Shown here: in pieces, positions 29 to 43,012 of the stretch | Layout of the letters: each line of letters begins with the position of its first letter | Position numbering within the stretch: the stretch's first letter is position 1 | Source: Oscillatoriales cyanobacterium RM2_1_1 | Lineage (GTDB): Bacteria > Cyanobacteriota > Cyanobacteriia > Cyanobacteriales > Microcoleaceae | Assembly: GCA_012033335.1 (NCBI GenBank) | Contig: JAAURB010000042.1 | Span: 1 to 43,012 of the forward strand | Length of the DNA stretch: 43,012 nucleotides | Reading direction: 5' to 3' | Notes under the pieces: generated by a model | What the model was told of the DNA's origin: nothing | What the model saw: only the letters and a program-made list of their open reading frames with translations | The model's database searches: none | Position numbers and translations under genes: made by a program

Positions 29-129
29 TAAGTAGATGGTTGTAATTAATTATCAAACAGAAGGGGGTCTGGGGCTTTGCCCTTCAACCCCCTACATGTA
101 TCTTCTAATTAATTGTGCCTAGCTACTTA
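29..129 (+). repeat. MITE-like repeat, copy A
   Basis: This 101-bp element opens with TAAGTAGATGGTTG and closes with CCTAGCTACTTA, so its ends form an imperfect terminal inverted repeat (TAAGTAG...CTACTTA) followed inwards by AATTAATTA-type A/T blocks. The centre is G/C-rich and can fold into a hairpin (GGGGTCTGGGGC... against ...CCCCCTA). It is shorter than copies B and C because the second inner hairpin is missing. It has no coding capacity. Close relatives lie at 35644-35762 and 42906-43012, and a diverged one at 33185-33320. The TA at each outer end would fit a TA target duplication as in IS630/mariner-type elements; that is an inference. Confidence 0.8.
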
Positions 130-33073: not shown

Positions 33074-33454
33074 GATTGATCACAATAGCACTGCTCAAGA
33101 GAAGCTAAAGTCTGGTAATTCATCTGTTAGAAAGCTCTTGAAAAACTCTTAGAAAATTCTTAGAAAACTTTTAGAGAAGTATCATTAGGTGGATGTAATT
33201 AATTGTGAGATGGAGGGGGGTCTGGGGATTTTCCCCAGGAAGGGGAGCAGTGCCCCTTTCATCCCCTCATCCATCTTCTAACTTCTAATTCATTGCTCTA
33301 ATTAATTGCGTCAATCTACTCAGAAGAATCTAGAAAATCATCAAGGGTTTGTTAACTAAATCAAATTTTCTTTAAGTTTTTCGATCCCTTCCACAAACTC
33401 CTGAGCTTTATTTGTTACAACCAGAATAGAGGTTGTTAATTCAGGTAAATTCCC
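33074..33454. other. 381-bp spacer with repeat copy B
   Basis: The spacer holds imperfect 11-12-bp tandem units (CTCTTAGAAAA-like) around 33133-33178 and a diverged MITE-like copy (33185-33320). The remainder upstream of 33455 is A/T-rich and may carry the promoter of the small membrane protein. No gene was seen. Confidence 0.6.
33185..33320 (+). repeat. MITE-like repeat, copy B (diverged)
   Basis: Its 136 bases keep the general plan: a GGTGGATGTAATTAATT left end, a G-run hairpin centre (TCTGGGGATTTTCCCCAGGA and GGGGAGCAGTGCCCC), and a right end AATTAATTGCGTCAATCTACT. It is longer and more diverged than copies A, C and D, with an internal duplication of the TCTAACTTCTAATT segment near 33276-33300. 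It is probably an older insertion. Confidence 0.7.
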
Positions 33455-34264: not shown

Positions 34265-35431
34265 ATGAAGCTATCCACCCGAATTGAACAGGTTCCGCCT
34301 TCTCTGACCCTGGCCGTCTCTGCAAAGGCCAAGGCCATGCGAAATCAGGGAATTAATGTTCTCGATTTCAGCGTGGGGGAGCCCGATTTTGATACCCCCC
34401 AACATATTGTGGCGGCGGCAAAGCAGGCCCTTGATCAGGGAAAAACCCGTTACGGCCCTGCGGCTGGGGAACCGCAACTGCGGCAGGCGATCGCTCAAAC
34501 CTTAACCCGCGAAATTGGGGTCGAGTATCAACCTGAAAATATCATTGTCACCAATGGTGGCAAACATTCGCTTTACAACCTGATCATGACTGTAATCGAG
34601 GCTGGCGATGAAGTGATTATTCCAGCCCCCTATTGGGTCAGCTATCCAGAGATGGTGAAGCTAGCCGATGGCACCCCAGTCATTGTGCCAACGGATGCCA
34701 GCACCGGTTACAAAATCACTCCGGAATTGCTACATCAGGCCATTACCCCCAGCACCAAGCTATTTGTCCTGAATTCCCCCTCCAATCCCACCGGGATGGT
34801 CTACACCCCGGAGGAAATTAAAGCTCTAGCTGAGGTAGTCATCGAAGCTGGAGTGCCTGTGGTTTCTGATGAGATCTATTCAAAAATTGTCTACGATGGC
34901 ATCAAGCATCTCAGTATTGCAGCGGCCCACCCAGACAGTGCTGGACTGACCTTTATCAGTAGTGGATTTGCCAAGGCCTATGCTATGACAGGCTGGCGGT
35001 TGGGTTACCTAGCGGGAGATCCTGAGGTGATCAAAGCCCTGATCCGTATTCAAGGCCACAGCACCTCTAACGTCTGTACCTTTGCTCAATACGGGGCGAT
35101 CGCCGCCCTGGAAAGCCCTCAAGCTTGTATTGAGGAGATGCGGCTAGCCTTTGCCCAGCGCCGGGAAGTGATGTATGAAGGATTAAATTCGATTCCTGGA
35201 CTGGCTTGCCTGAAACCTGACGGTGCATTCTATACCTACATTGATATCAGCAAACTGGGTTTGGATTCCCTGACATTTTGTGATGCTTTACTGGCGGAAA
35301 AACAAATGGCGGCGGTTCCAGGAATTGCCTTTGGCAATGACAATCATATTCGTCTATCCTACGCTACGGATCTGGTGACGATTGAAACTGGAATTGAAAA
35401 GTTAGCGGCGTTTGTTCAGGCTCGACTTTAG
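34265..35431 (+). CDS. aspC: Pyridoxal-phosphate aminotransferase, aspartate type
   Basis: The 388-residue class I aminotransferase uses pyridoxal phosphate, most likely to exchange the amino group between aspartate and 2-oxoglutarate. It shows [17 protein letters not shown] (substrate-domain start, about 61-77), the NSPSNPTG motif (about 167-174), the cofactor lysine in [17 protein letters not shown] (about 229-245), and the R in IRLSYA near the end that binds the carboxylate. An AAGGA ribosome binding site at 34252-34256 supports the ATG at 34265. Some cyanobacterial members also accept prephenate, so the substrate is not certain. It is convergent with gcvP across a repeat-bearing spacer. 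Confidence 0.92.
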
Positions 35432-35848
35432 ATTTCTAGCCATGAGATTTCTAGCTGTTAGATTTTTAGCTGTTAGAGATACTGTCGGAGGGAAGTCTGA
35501 ACGCTCTGGGTTGGGGCACTCGTCCGTAGCATAGTCATCCCCCTATCCTGAGGTCAAAGTCTGGGAAAAGGGGGACTTGAGTTCCTGATACCAACTCTTA
35601 AAATTGGCATGACACAAAACCCAGAGCACATCGCAGCCCGTGGTAAGTAGATGGTTGTAATAATATCAAATAGAAGGGAGTCTGGGGCTTTGCCCCAGGA
35701 AGGGGGCAGCGCCCCCTTCAACCCCTACATGTATCTTCTGATTAATTGTGCCTAGCTACTTATTCCAGGTTCCTATCTATAACAATATCAAAGAGATTGG
35801 TATGAGATGGCCCATGCCGATCTATGGGTTGCTGCACCGGTTGAGTGG
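35432..35848. other. 417-bp convergent spacer with repeat copy C
   Basis: It lies between the ends of the aminotransferase and gcvP. It begins with imperfect 15-16-bp tandem units (GATTTCTAGC, GATTTCTAGCTGTTA, GATTTTTAGCTGTTA; 35431-35475) and contains the MITE-like copy C (35644-35762). No gene was found; the G/C hairpins in the repeat may serve as a terminator for both genes. Confidence 0.6.
35644..35762 (+). repeat. MITE-like repeat, copy C
   Basis: This 119-bp copy is complete: left end TAAGTAGATGGTTGTAAT, hairpin 1 CTGGGGCTTTGCCCCAG, hairpin 2 AAGGGGGCAGCGCCCCCTT, right end CCTAGCTACTTA. It is almost identical to copies A and D in the shared parts and serves as the reference copy of the family. 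Confidence 0.85.
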
Positions 35849-38800
35849 CTAAGATACAGTGGGCTCCGAGTTGTAAGCCTCTAGGGGTAGACAGGAACAG
35901 ACAAAATTGCGATCGCCAAAAGCATTGTCAATGCGTCCCACCGCTGGCCAGAACTTGAATTCTCGCAACCAGGGAACCGGATAAGCCGCCTGTTCCCGGG
36001 AGTAAGGCCGTTTCCACTCCCCGACGATCAAAGATTCAGCCGTATGGGGGGCGTGTTTGAGCAGGTTATCCTCAGGGCTAATCTGACCGGATTCAATGGC
36101 TTGAATTTCATGGCGAATCGCAATCATCGCCTCACAAAACCGATCCATTTCTGCTTTTGATTCGCTTTCGGTCGGCTCTACCATTACCGTTCCAGTGACG
36201 GGCCAGGAAACCGTGGGGGCATGGAAGCCATAATCCATCAGCCGTTTAGCAATATCATCTACCTCAATGCCAGCGGATTTTTTCAGCGATCGCAAGTCCA
36301 GAATGCATTCATGGGCGATCAATCCCTGCCGACCCTTATAAAGCACTGGATAGAATTCATTCAAGCGTCGGGCCATGTAGTTGGCGTTGAGAATGGCAAT
36401 CCGGGTGGCCTGAGTGAGTCCTTCGGCCCCCATCATGGCGATATACATCCAGGAAATCACCAGAATACTGGAACTTCCCCAGGGGGCCGCCGAAACCGCT
36501 CCAGCGGGAGATTGGGGATTGGAACCATCTTTTAGGGGATTAGTCAGGGAATTGTTCATGGGTACCACGGTATGACCCGGCAAAAACGGGATCAGATGGC
36601 GTTGAACTCCAATCGGCCCCATGCCAGGGCCGCCGCCACCATGGGGAATGCAAAAGGTTTTGTGGAGGTTGAGGTGGCAAACATCCGCCCCAAAGTCTGC
36701 CGGGCGGCAGAGACCAACCTGGGCATTCATATTGGCCCCATCCATGTAGACCTGGCCGCCATGGGTATGGATAATTTCGCAGATTTCCTTGATTCCCGCT
36801 TCAAATACCCCATGGGTAGACGGATAGGTCACCATCAGCGCCGCGAGACGATCCCGATGCTGTGCAGATTTGGCTTTTAGGTCAGGAATGTCAATATTGC
36901 CATCTAGGTCACATTTGATAACAACAACCTTGAGGCCGCACATGACCGCACTGGCAGGATTTGTACCATGGGCCGATTCGGGAATCAGACAGATATGGCG
37001 ATGGCCCTGACCCTGAGCGTGATGGTAGCGCTGAATCACCAGCAGCCCGGCATATTCTCCCTGGGATCCAGCGTTGGGTTGGAGGGACACCCCGGCAAAT
37101 CCAGTAATTTCCTCCAACCAGGTTTCTAGCTGTTGGAATAGGGTCTGATAGCCCTGGGTTTGGCTCAGGGGGGCAAATGGATGGATCTTCCCAAACTCCG
37201 GCCAGGTGACCGGCATCATCTCCGCCGCCCCGTTGAGCTTCATGGTGCAGGAACCTAGGGGAATCATCGAGGTGTTCAGGGATAAGTCCCTCGATTCCAG
37301 ACGGTGGAGATACCGCATCAGCTCGGTTTCAGAATGATAGCAATTGAAAACCGGATGGGTCAGGTAAGGGGTCTGGCGGGCTAAGTCCGGGGGAATGGTT
37401 GAAGAAATGTCCAGTTGATCCCCTTGGAAAGGTAGTTCCCTGCCACCAGCAAAGATTTCCCAGAGATCCTGAAGATCCTCCAGGGTCGTTGTTTCATCCA
37501 AACTGATCCCAACAGCTTGAGAATTAATGACCCGCAGATTGATCCGCTTCGCGATCGCTGCATCCAAGATTTGCTGTAAGGCAGTGGTTCCCAAATTCAC
37601 CGTCAGGGTATCGAAGAAAGCTACCGCCCCCAGGGTATAGCCCAATTGTTTCAGTCCTGCGGCCAGGGTTACCGTCAACTGATGAATTCGTTGGGCAATT
37701 TGCTGCAACCCAGTTGGCCCATGATAGACCCCATACATACCGGCGATCACCGCCAGTAACACTTGGGCTGTGCAAATATTACTGGTGGCCTTATCCCGGC
37801 GAATGTGTTGTTCACGGGTTTGGAGTGCTAGACGCAGGGCCGAATTGCCGTTGGCATCCTGGGACAGGCCCACAATCCGTCCAGGAACTTGACGTTTGAA
37901 CGCTGCTCGGGTGGCGAAATAAGCCGCATGGGGGCCACCATAACCCAGGGGAACCCCAAATCGTTGGGTACTTCCGACTACAATGTCAGCCCCAAATTCC
38001 CCCGGAGGAGTCAGTAACGTCAGGCTGAGAATATCGGCGGCAACGGTGACGAACCCCCCCTGGTTATGGGTTGTTTGAATGAATTTCCGATAGTCAAGAA
38101 TGGCTCCATCAGTAGCTGGATATTGTAGCAACGCCCCAAAAATCGGTTGCTTAAACTCAAAGGTTTGAGGATCGCCGATGATAATCTCAATCTCTAAAGG
38201 TAGGGCGCGGGTTTGAATCACATCGAGGGTTTGGGGGTGACAGTGGTCTGCCACAAAAAAAGCATTCGCTTTATTTTTACTCAAGCCATAACTCATGGTC
38301 ATGGCTTCGGCGGCGGCGGTGGCCTCATCCAGGAGAGAAGCATTGGCAATTTCCATTCCGGTCAGGTCAATCACCAGGGTCTGGAAGTTGAGCAAGGCTT
38401 CTAGACGACCCTGGGCAATCTCCGCCTGATAAGGAGTATAAGCCGTGTACCAGCCCGGATTTTCTAGAATATTGCGCTGAATCACCGGGGGGGTGATGCA
38501 ATCGGCATAGCCCATGCCGATGAAAGATCGAAAAATCTGGTTTTGAGCGGCAATCTCCTGCAATTGCTTTAAGGCCGCATATTCACTCCGGGCGGGCGGA
38601 AGCTGCAGGGAACGACCCAGACGAATGCCCGGGGGCACGGTAGTATCAATTAAAGCCTCCAGGGTACTGAACCCCAAAAAATCCAGCATTTGCTGGATTT
38701 CATCAGCATTGGGGCCAATATGCCGGGGGAGGAACGAAGTCTCAGAATTCCCAGGGTTAGAGCAGGATGAAAGAGCACTGGAACGACTCTGCTGAAGGGC

Positions 38801-38965
38801 TTGGGCAGGAACTAAAGCGGTCGAACCTGGCTGTTCTGGTGGCTTTTCTAAGGGGGTGGGTGACGTTGTGGGTTGTAAATCTGGTTGGTCTAACTTGGGG
38901 AATGGAGTCATCTCTAGCTTTACTGATGGGGATAGGAACTCTGCTGGGAAAAGTTTGGGTTGCAT
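35849..38965 (-). CDS. gcvP: Glycine dehydrogenase (decarboxylating), P protein
   Basis: P protein decarboxylates glycine with pyridoxal phosphate and passes the aminomethyl group to the lipoyl arm of H protein. In cyanobacteria it helps to recycle photorespiratory 2-phosphoglycolate. The single-chain form has two related halves. The start of the conserved part is [17 protein letters not shown] (about 78-94), and the cofactor lysine lies in [20 protein letters not shown] (about 754-773). The total of 1038 residues is longer than usual because of a non-conserved Pro/Ser/Gln-rich N-terminal tail of about 75 residues. An internal ATG at 38911 (residue 19) is an alternative start, and no ribosome binding site decides. 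No glycine riboswitch was seen upstream. Confidence 0.96.
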
Positions 38966-41584: not shown

Positions 41585-42748
41585 TCAATGCCCAAACTTC
41601 TGAATCGCTGTTTTTAATGGCCCTTCCGGTAAACTGTCCCGCTCGAAAGATCCTCCCTCTTGTACCCGATCTAGAGCTTCAAAGAAAGCCTGAACTCCTG
41701 CCCCAGGGCCATCAGGATGATCCATAATTCCCGTGCCAGCATTGAGAATCACCTCATGGCCATAGTCCGCCAACGCCTGGGGCACAATTCCCGGATGGAT
41801 GCCCGCCGATGGCACGGGAAATACCTGGCGAGATCGCAGGCCATCTCGGATTTTTTGCTCCTCCATTGGATCAAAGGGCAAACTGCCATAGTGAGCGGGA
41901 TACAACACTGCATCCGCTCCCCCATGGGCCATCAAAGTTCCTAAAACGACAGAATAGGCTAATCCCGTATCTGTCCCTGCACACATCGCCCCCGCCAAGG
42001 CTGGATGAACAAAAATCGGTACATTCACCTCAGGGTCAGCCCCTAGAGCTTCCAGAACAGAAAATCCATAGGTCAAAGCGTTCAACAACAAAGCGTTTGC
42101 CCCGGCTCTAACCAGGGTTCGAGCCTTGTCTAGCAGGGTTCGGGCAGAGCCCGTGACATTCACGGCATAGAGCACCCTGCGTCCAGTTTTTTGCTGGACT
42201 TGATCAAGTACCTGCCGACAGGCTCGGAGCCGTTCCAGGGTTGGTGCAACAGCCAGATCCCCCATGATTTCATCGTCTTTGATGATATCCAATCCGGCAA
42301 AGGCCACCTGTTCTAAAATGGCAGCGTGATCGGCGGCGGAGAGCCCCAGAGCGGGTTTGAAAATAGCCATGATCAAGGGTCGATCAAACACTTGTAATTG
42401 CTGCCGAATCCCCTTGATGCCAAACTGAGGAAACTGCCCATAATCCTCGGGTAACCGTACCGCCACCACTTTCCCCAATCCCGCCATAGAATACTTCCCA
42501 AAAATCATGGTCAAGAGACTGGAAATGTCATTTTCTACATTGATTTCTGGAAATTGAATCGTGGCAATGTGTCCACCTGATGCTTCTGGCTGAACTCGAA
42601 CAACGGTTGCTAGGTGCGATCGCAGTTGGGCTTCGCGATGCGTAAACCGAGCGTCCCAGGTTCCTACGGTTTGGCCAACGGCAATGACCTGAGCCTGACG
42701 CTCTGGATCAATTGATTCAGGAAAATAGTAATCAACTTCAATGGTCAT
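41585..42748 (-). CDS. mtnW: RuBisCO-like protein, DK-MTP-1-P enolase
   Basis: This form IV RuBisCO homologue enolises 2,3-diketo-5-methylthiopentyl-1-phosphate, the step after MtnB in methionine salvage. The ATG at 42746-42748 gives 387 residues; an earlier non-ATG start would add ten. Equivalents of RuBisCO active-site residues are visible: K131 in IFKPALGLS, K157-D159-E160 in IIKDDEIMGD (metal site), H248 in VHPALAGA and the phosphate loop LNAGTGIMDHPDGPGAG (336-352). The loop 6 lysine region of true RuBisCO is replaced (YPAHYGSLPF), so carboxylation is not expected. Microcystis has a similar enzyme. Together with mtnB it forms a two-gene operon. Confidence 0.93.
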   Translation of the reverse strand: MTIEVDYYFPESIDPERQAQVIAVGQTVGTWDARFTHREAQLRSHLATVVRVQPEASGGHIATIQFPEINVENDISSLLTMIFGKYSMAGLGKVVAVRLPEDYGQFPQFGIKGIRQQLQVFDRPLIMAIFKPALGLSAADHAAILEQVAFAGLDIIKDDEIMGDLAVAPTLERLRACRQVLDQVQQKTGRRVLYAVNVTGSARTLLDKARTLVRAGANALLLNALTYGFSVLEALGADPEVNVPIFVHPALAGAMCAGTDTGLAYSVVLGTLMAHGGADAVLYPAHYGSLPFDPMEEQKIRDGLRSRQVFPVPSAGIHPGIVPQALADYGHEVILNAGTGIMDHPDGPGAGVQAFFEALDRVQEGGSFERDSLPEGPLKTAIQKFGH

Positions 42749-42905
42749 AAAATTTAGAGCTGTCAGAAACTCAACCAACTACATTAGCGAACATGCTGAG
42801 AATACTCAACCATTCTCTAAGCATTTAGTCGGAGTGGGGGGGAGCATTGCCTGGATTGCAACCGTGAGCTCAGGAAAGTTGAGGGCTGTAATCATTTCAT
42901 TTTCT

Positions 42906-43012
42906 AAGTAGCTAGGCACAATTAATCAGAAGATACATGTAGGGGGTTAAAGGGGGCAGTGCCCCCTTCCTGCACTGCCCCAGACCCCCCTTCTACTTTG
43001 TATAATTAATTA
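42906..43012 (-). repeat. MITE-like repeat, copy D (cut by the window end)
   Basis: It begins with TAAGTAGCTAGGCACAATTA, the reverse complement of the right end of copy C, continues through both G/C hairpins (AAGGGGGCAGTGCCCCCTT) and reaches the ATAATTAATTA block at the window edge. Only the last bases with the other terminus are missing. It sits upstream of mtnW in the opposite orientation to copies A and C. Confidence 0.85.

Follow-up and report, generated by a model that had tools for sequence, protein, structure and literature searches.

The window analysed here, a stretch of 43,012 nucleotides, is the entire contig C15 of the draft genome of Oscillatoriales cyanobacterium RM2_1_1 (5.18 Mb in 178 contigs, 98.89% complete). 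Four copies of a short repeat, A to D, were found in it, and repeat copies lie at or near both ends of the contig. The copies, the genes on either side of copy C and the immediate surroundings of that copy are as follows.

29–129, + strand: copy A, subgroup 1, 101 bp, complete ends TAAGTAG...CTACTTA
about 33182–33322, + strand: copy B, subgroup 2, degenerate, ends TCATTAG/CTACTCA
34265–35431, + strand: gene for a class I/II aminotransferase, to the left of copy C
35589–35637, + strand: host repeat, left part, of the second repeat family that carries copy C
35644–35645: left-hand TA of copy C, half of the presumed target duplication
35644–35762, + strand: copy C, subgroup 1, complete, 119 bp, both hairpins
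35761–35762: TA right of copy C, the other half of the presumed duplication
35763–35802, + strand: host repeat, right part, of the second repeat family that carries copy C
35849–38965, − strand: convergent gene for the P-protein of the glycine cleavage system, to the right of copy C
42905–43012, − strand: copy D, subgroup 1, truncated where the contig stops

A tRNA gene (Rfam RF00005; 536–608, − strand) lies about 400 bp from copy A, and a 397-aa RuBisCO-large-chain-like protein, possibly a RuBisCO-like protein (Pfam RuBisCO_large, 3.7e-36), is encoded at 41588–42778 on the − strand. The best relatives of the aminotransferase left of copy C are cyanobacterial.

The positions given in the initial annotation were exact for copies A and C, whereas D proved one base longer, beginning at 42905, and B wider (its limits were read by eye; the HMM match spans 33186–33320). 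Copies A, C and D had also been called nearly identical, a description that holds only in part. With indels excluded, the pairwise identities were 96.9% (A–C), 94.3% (A–D) and 93.3% (D–C), and copy A is without about 20 bases, comprising some of hairpin 1 and the greater part of hairpin 2. About 14 consensus positions are missing from the left end of copy D, where the contig stops. Copy B, which has 83–87% identity to the other three (indels excluded), retains both hairpins and carries an additional insertion close to its right end. The left end of copy C is IRL-like and its right end IRR-like. A family HMM detected no fifth copy in the window at E ≤ 1e-3, and the end patterns matched there twice (left) and three times (right), copy B not being among these matches, compared with a mean of 0.00 in 100 shuffles.

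As annotated initially, the copies share imperfect inverted ends and have no coding capacity, being short elements in which a transposase gene is absent; two G/C hairpins lie within the outer stem, with copy A largely devoid of hairpin 2. All four copies lie between genes, none overlapping the larger listed open reading frames (ORFs) of the window, and copy C sits between convergent genes, the aminotransferase gene (+) and the P-protein gene (−). The window also holds no IS630-type transposase, as had been claimed: matches to two IS630 models were found in the same genome, none of them on C15.

Copy number, subgroups and distribution

A whole-genome search with copy C, proposed in the initial annotation, revealed many further copies. 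BLAST returned at least 41 matches, copy C itself included (40 of 292 candidates were scored), and the 23-mer of the left end, with up to three mismatches, matched 200 times in the assembly, its reversed pattern never. A shorter left-end 18-mer matched 211 times (reversed, 17 times) and a right-end 21-mer 129 times (reversed, 0). When the family HMM was run on the fetched loci of this genome, 83 non-overlapping places were recovered, some of which are one place present in two loci. The genome thus contains about a hundred or more dispersed, short, gene-less elements, mostly intergenic.

The elements measure about 89–141 bp. The right ends split the family into two subgroups, one with GCCTAGCTACTTA (25 of 46 complete right ends) and one mainly with GTCAAGCTACTTA (13 of 46), and one 46-bp form is scarcely more than two ends. 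The 38 near-complete copies besides C are 89–135 bp long as trimmed by the HMM; their mean identity was 94.8% in subgroup 1 (n=13) and 87.2% among the other 25, which were scored as subgroup 2 and include one truncated subgroup-1 copy (L075:2409–2511). Subgroup 1 therefore looks the younger of the two. Some copies are identical once indels are excluded, copy C and a copy on contig C108 are 98% identical over their length, and insertions are nested in other repeats, so that the recent movement proposed initially is plausible.

Segmental duplications or an assembly artefact, in place of transposition, might be invoked for these repeats, as many contigs break in copies: in a by-eye tally, at least 52 of the 178 contigs had an end match, among the matches listed, no more than about 150 bp from where the contig begins. 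However, flanks differ between copies, many copies are internal to contigs, and insertions are nested in other repeats; we regard this explanation as having a negligible chance of being correct. The family also seems to be one of the chief reasons why this assembly is fragmented.

Beyond this genome, the left-end pattern (up to three mismatches) occurred in 132 of the 388 genomes sampled from the order, our genome included. The reversed left-end control matched in some of the 388 as well, usually a single time; a lone match with three mismatches is therefore weak, which does not apply to genomes with many matches. None of the 60 other genomes of the same family, a sample without another genome of the same genus, had more than two left-end matches, indicating that among the sampled genomes the amplification is particular to the lineage of the window. 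A search with copy C in 30 genomes, comprising our own and relatives, matched in two, namely our own and one with three weak end matches. A plasmid search with copy C returned no match, and viral contigs contained no exact match to either the left or the right end.

TA target sites and empty sites

Copy C and a second copy, L006 on contig C153, are inserted at two different places of a second repeat family, for which 25 matching places were listed, including the query itself and both halves around copy C. This second family (L207–L226) is interspersed, about 98 bp long and bounded by inverted ends, TACCAACTCTT...AAGAGAATTGGTA; it looks like another MITE family. In an alignment of its longer copies, in which L226 is the occupied C153 locus itself, the site of L006 had a single TA in all 19 element-free copies and read GGTTCCTATC in 14 of the 19, and the flanks of L006, joined by one TA, aligned gap-free with the element-free copies. 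At the site of copy C the length agrees with a single TA, but the remaining host-repeat copies have bases other than TA there, and copy C therefore supports the length only. A third insertion, L002, interrupts the end of an older member of the MITE family, giving ...CCATC-TA-CTTA, so that the family end itself serves as the empty site. TA was present at the start and end of 29 of 29 copies, a figure that is partly selected since the copies were chosen by full-length match.

Together, the L006 and L002 sites, with one TA when empty and two when filled, and the copy C site for length, support the TA target duplication suggested in the initial annotation. The empty sites are paralogous, lying within repeat families. 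A target duplication longer than TA was rejected, with no excess of direct repeats over chance outside the TA in the 29 copies with both flanks. At an orthologous intergenic locus in another genus, sampled in 12 genomes counting the source, the copy L235 was, by eye, absent from the five relatives whose sequence was read, in which the spacers differ too strongly to give a clean empty site. What the initial annotation had named as evidence against a mobile family (no further copies, no empty sites, one duplicated locus) is the opposite of what was found: further copies and paralogous empty sites exist, and the flanks are unrelated. A further short repeat, TTTGTGATTGC, was seen beside several MITE copies, in the flanks of L008, L038 and L049.

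The dispersed, short, gene-less elements with terminal inverted repeats and unrelated flanks are MITEs by these observations, as the initial term MITE-like implied; their ends are unequal. A different mobile system was also considered, namely GTAG-tagged REPs or REPINs mobilized by a RAYT, a Y1 transposase related to IS200/IS605. GTAG does occur within the MITE end, the elements are intergenic and palindromic, and GTAG REPs are reported in cyanobacteria in the cited account (PMC3733652). Against it, the elements have two long, imperfect, IS630-like ends and occupy TA sites, and the Y1_Tnp model (PF01797) had no match in this genome at E ≤ 1e-3, whereas 5 of 14 control genomes matched. A RAYT origin is thus highly improbable.

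IS630 elements with the same ends

One of the loci found with the left-end pattern, L086, is a decayed 1226-bp IS630 element carrying both ends. A search with its DDE fragment detected relatives in 51 of the 388 genomes at E ≤ 1e-20, and 30 transposase loci from this search were fetched. Both MITE ends were found 0.8–1.3 kb apart around the transposase match in 22 of the 30 loci, one end in 4 and none in 4; the backwards control yielded 0 pairs and one end over the same loci, and 20 rounds of shuffling yielded 0 pairs. The named carriers of related IS630 elements are cyanobacterial.

Across the 22 elements, which are partly non-independent (L097 and L098 are near-copies), identities ranged from 12 to 21 of 23 positions between the IRL and the MITE left end and from 14 to 22 of 23 between the IRR and the right end. 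The best agreement was found between the MITE right end and the IRR of L122, which follows the transposase gene (22/23), and between the MITE left end and the IRL of L104 (21/23); the two MITE ends agree with each other at 17/23. The IRR was closer to the right end in 15 elements and to the left end in 3, with 4 ties, and the IRL was closer to the left end in 10 and to the right end in 9, with 3 ties. Judged from these identities, end polarity is clear on the right and in the closest elements (L104, L108, L122 and L123), and mixed on the left. The L122 transposase, a 352-aa ORF of Nostoc sp. ATCC 53789 (NZ_CP046705.1), is annotated as IS630 family and matches Pfam DDE_3 (2.9e-19) and NCBIfam NF033545 (162.7 bits; cut-off 100).

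The insertion sequence with the same termini sought in the initial annotation is therefore present in other genomes of the order, and its suggestion of an IS630/mariner type is borne out by the matching ends and by a transposase identified through Pfam, NCBIfam and annotation. By sequence, the ends appear to be common to the MITE and to autonomous IS630 elements of about 1.1–1.2 kb. The group of about 1.13 kb represented in NZ_CP046705.1 resembles the MITE in its terminal inverted repeats (22/23 right, 21/23 left) and TA ends, whereas it is 1126 bp long with a transposase gene and the MITE is a gene-less element of about 89–141 bp with internal G/C hairpins. The likeness to IS630 shown here lies in the ends.

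No transposase with the MITE ends was found in the MITE's own draft assembly, and the L122 protein had no match there at E ≤ 1e-3. The IS630 element on contig C37 (L034/L277) and the contig-end fragments on C141 (L280) and C159 (L281) were rejected as partners, having other ends; they belong to a different IS630 element, broken or cut by contig ends. The C141 fragment lies in an old MITE copy. Below-cut-off matches on C146, C22 and C14 showed no matching ends in the stretches examined, and these matches may not be IS630, because the model behind them also matches weakly in 12 of 14 control genomes. As none was found, the family appears orphaned in its own assembly; a partner may lie inside an assembly gap. 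The lacking partner is not needed for an account of descent, but leaves present movement unexplained.

We conclude, with a probability of roughly nine in ten, that the repeats are a high-copy MITE family, non-autonomous and derived from an insertion sequence of the IS630/Tc1-mariner type. Each element retains a left and a right end of about 23 bp, unlike one another and resembling those of IS630, with TA on both sides. ISY100, a cyanobacterial IS630 element, inserts nearly only at TA and duplicates it, and its mini-elements with 30 bp of each end function in vitro, according to the cited account (PMC2170065). We propose that the MITE goes back to an IS630 element of the group of about 1.13 kb from which the transposase gene was lost and to which G/C-rich inverted repeats were added, and that, as for ISY100, the transposase of this IS630, acting in trans, would bind both ends, excise the MITE and paste it into an intergenic TA. 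Such trans-mobilization is, we infer, the best explanation, because mini-elements of ISY100 work with 30-bp ends and the MITE keeps about that much; the enzyme itself is postulated from other genomes. The family was probably amplified by an IS630 element that was lost, unassembled or transient, and would now be decaying in place.

Comparison with described systems places the family near several cyanobacterial elements. ISY100 of Synechocystis sp. PCC 6803 is alike in its TA target duplication, and its imperfect 24-bp ends are probably sufficient by the cited account (PMC2170065); it differs as an autonomous element of 947 bp, and the likeness was drawn from its published description. Nezha (Zhou 2008) is likewise a cyanobacterial MITE, compared here through mentions of it in the literature. 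The MITEs of Anabaena sp. 90 are structured and, as described (PMC3542288), number 147 complete or partial copies, 132 of them intergenic; as with our family, no similarity to the inverted repeats of that genome's insertion sequences is reported there. Their authors call them type II, whereas the ends here match an insertion sequence group elsewhere, a comparison made by description (PMC3542288). A 187-nt MITE of Microcystis is likewise of high copy number, cyanobacterial and tied to an insertion sequence by its ends, but is described as ISL3-type, with 8-nt direct repeats and other ends (PMC11448079). We take our family to be a new one among type I MITEs of IS630. A literature search with the end strings, which covered the cyanobacterial MITE literature in part, gave no related paper recognizable by title among those listed; the family or a near relative may already be published under a name. 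An abundant cyanobacterial repeat without a partner in its own assembly is in this way linked to an IS630 group through its ends and its empty sites. Since the left-end pattern is so widespread in the sampled genomes of the order, other unexplained short cyanobacterial repeats may share this origin.

Gene context and interior hairpins

Among 44 internal copies with both flanks, 43 were free of ORFs of at least 90 aa by a simple ORF-based call. The exception (L037:2557–2656) shares 62 bases with the beginning of a 428-aa ORF, and the real start of that ORF may be more internal. Where an ORF lay on each side (41 copies), the neighbours were tandem in 24 cases, divergent in 12 and convergent in 5; the other three copies, one of which overlaps an ORF, had no ORF on one side. 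The initial suggestion that the hairpins of copy C could act as a terminator between its convergent genes was not upheld: between 33000 and 36000 of the window, a segment covering copies B and C, no terminator-like site (G/C stem plus T run) was found, compared with a mean of 3.2 in shuffles, and so few of the classified copies are convergent. An intrinsic terminator was rejected for B and C on this basis.

The predicted fold of copy C, computed as DNA, was better than those of 200 of 200 shuffles (z −4.21). Over 39 copies the stems were paired in 93.1% of cells, and 8 cells had changes on both sides, compared with a shuffled mean of 3.4 (4 of 500 shuffles reached 8). However, when the partner was slid by −3, −2 and −1 columns, 9, 5 and 6 such cells were obtained, the first value exceeding that of the real structure, so that any covariation of the hairpins would be weak. 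Copies in this genome carry two, one or no G/C hairpins, and hairpins are missing in many of them.

These data bear on a further alternative, that a regulatory or terminator function, exerted as structured RNA in transcripts, maintains the repeats, and that mobility belongs to their past history. The well-paired stems, the excess of double changes over shuffles and the near-complete absence of copies from ORFs agree with it. The higher score of the structure slid by −3, the absence of hairpins in many copies, the few convergent settings and the lack of terminator-like sites near B and C count against it, as does the sole Rfam match in the window being the tRNA. We therefore consider a retained regulatory role unlikely, and return to the transposon-derived reading, in which the hairpins would probably be a by-product or a stabilizing part of the element, not a gene-specific terminator.

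Fifteen loci with the left-end pattern (L232–L246), from two genomes of one other genus in another family of the order, were inspected by eye. Both ends were present in 10 of the 15, about 96–250 bp apart. Most contain one to several tandem G/C hairpin modules of the CCCCCCTTGATAAGGGGGG type, unrelated to the hairpins of our genome, and three differ in their interior and represent a second kind of MITE with TAAGTAG ends. The hairpins of our family are present or absent as units, as in these same-ended MITEs of another genus. It is conceivable, if doubtful, that cyanobacterial IS630 MITEs carry hairpin modules as a cargo that is functional and can be exchanged. If the modules were gained independently, hairpins would favour transposition or tolerance of the element, and a passing IS630 could bring an orphan MITE to very high copy number. 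The modular nature of the hairpins raises the testable question of whether internal hairpins help a MITE to spread.

The centres of the hairpin-2 class were CAGCG (12), CAGTG (8), CACTG (8), CTTTG (4) and CATCG (1), the class being set by the bases that precede the stem, by which single-hairpin copies may be misclassed. The reverse complement of the commonest centre, CAGCG, was not seen among the centres of this class. CAGTG and CACTG, each the reverse complement of the other, were equally common, as if the centre could flip.
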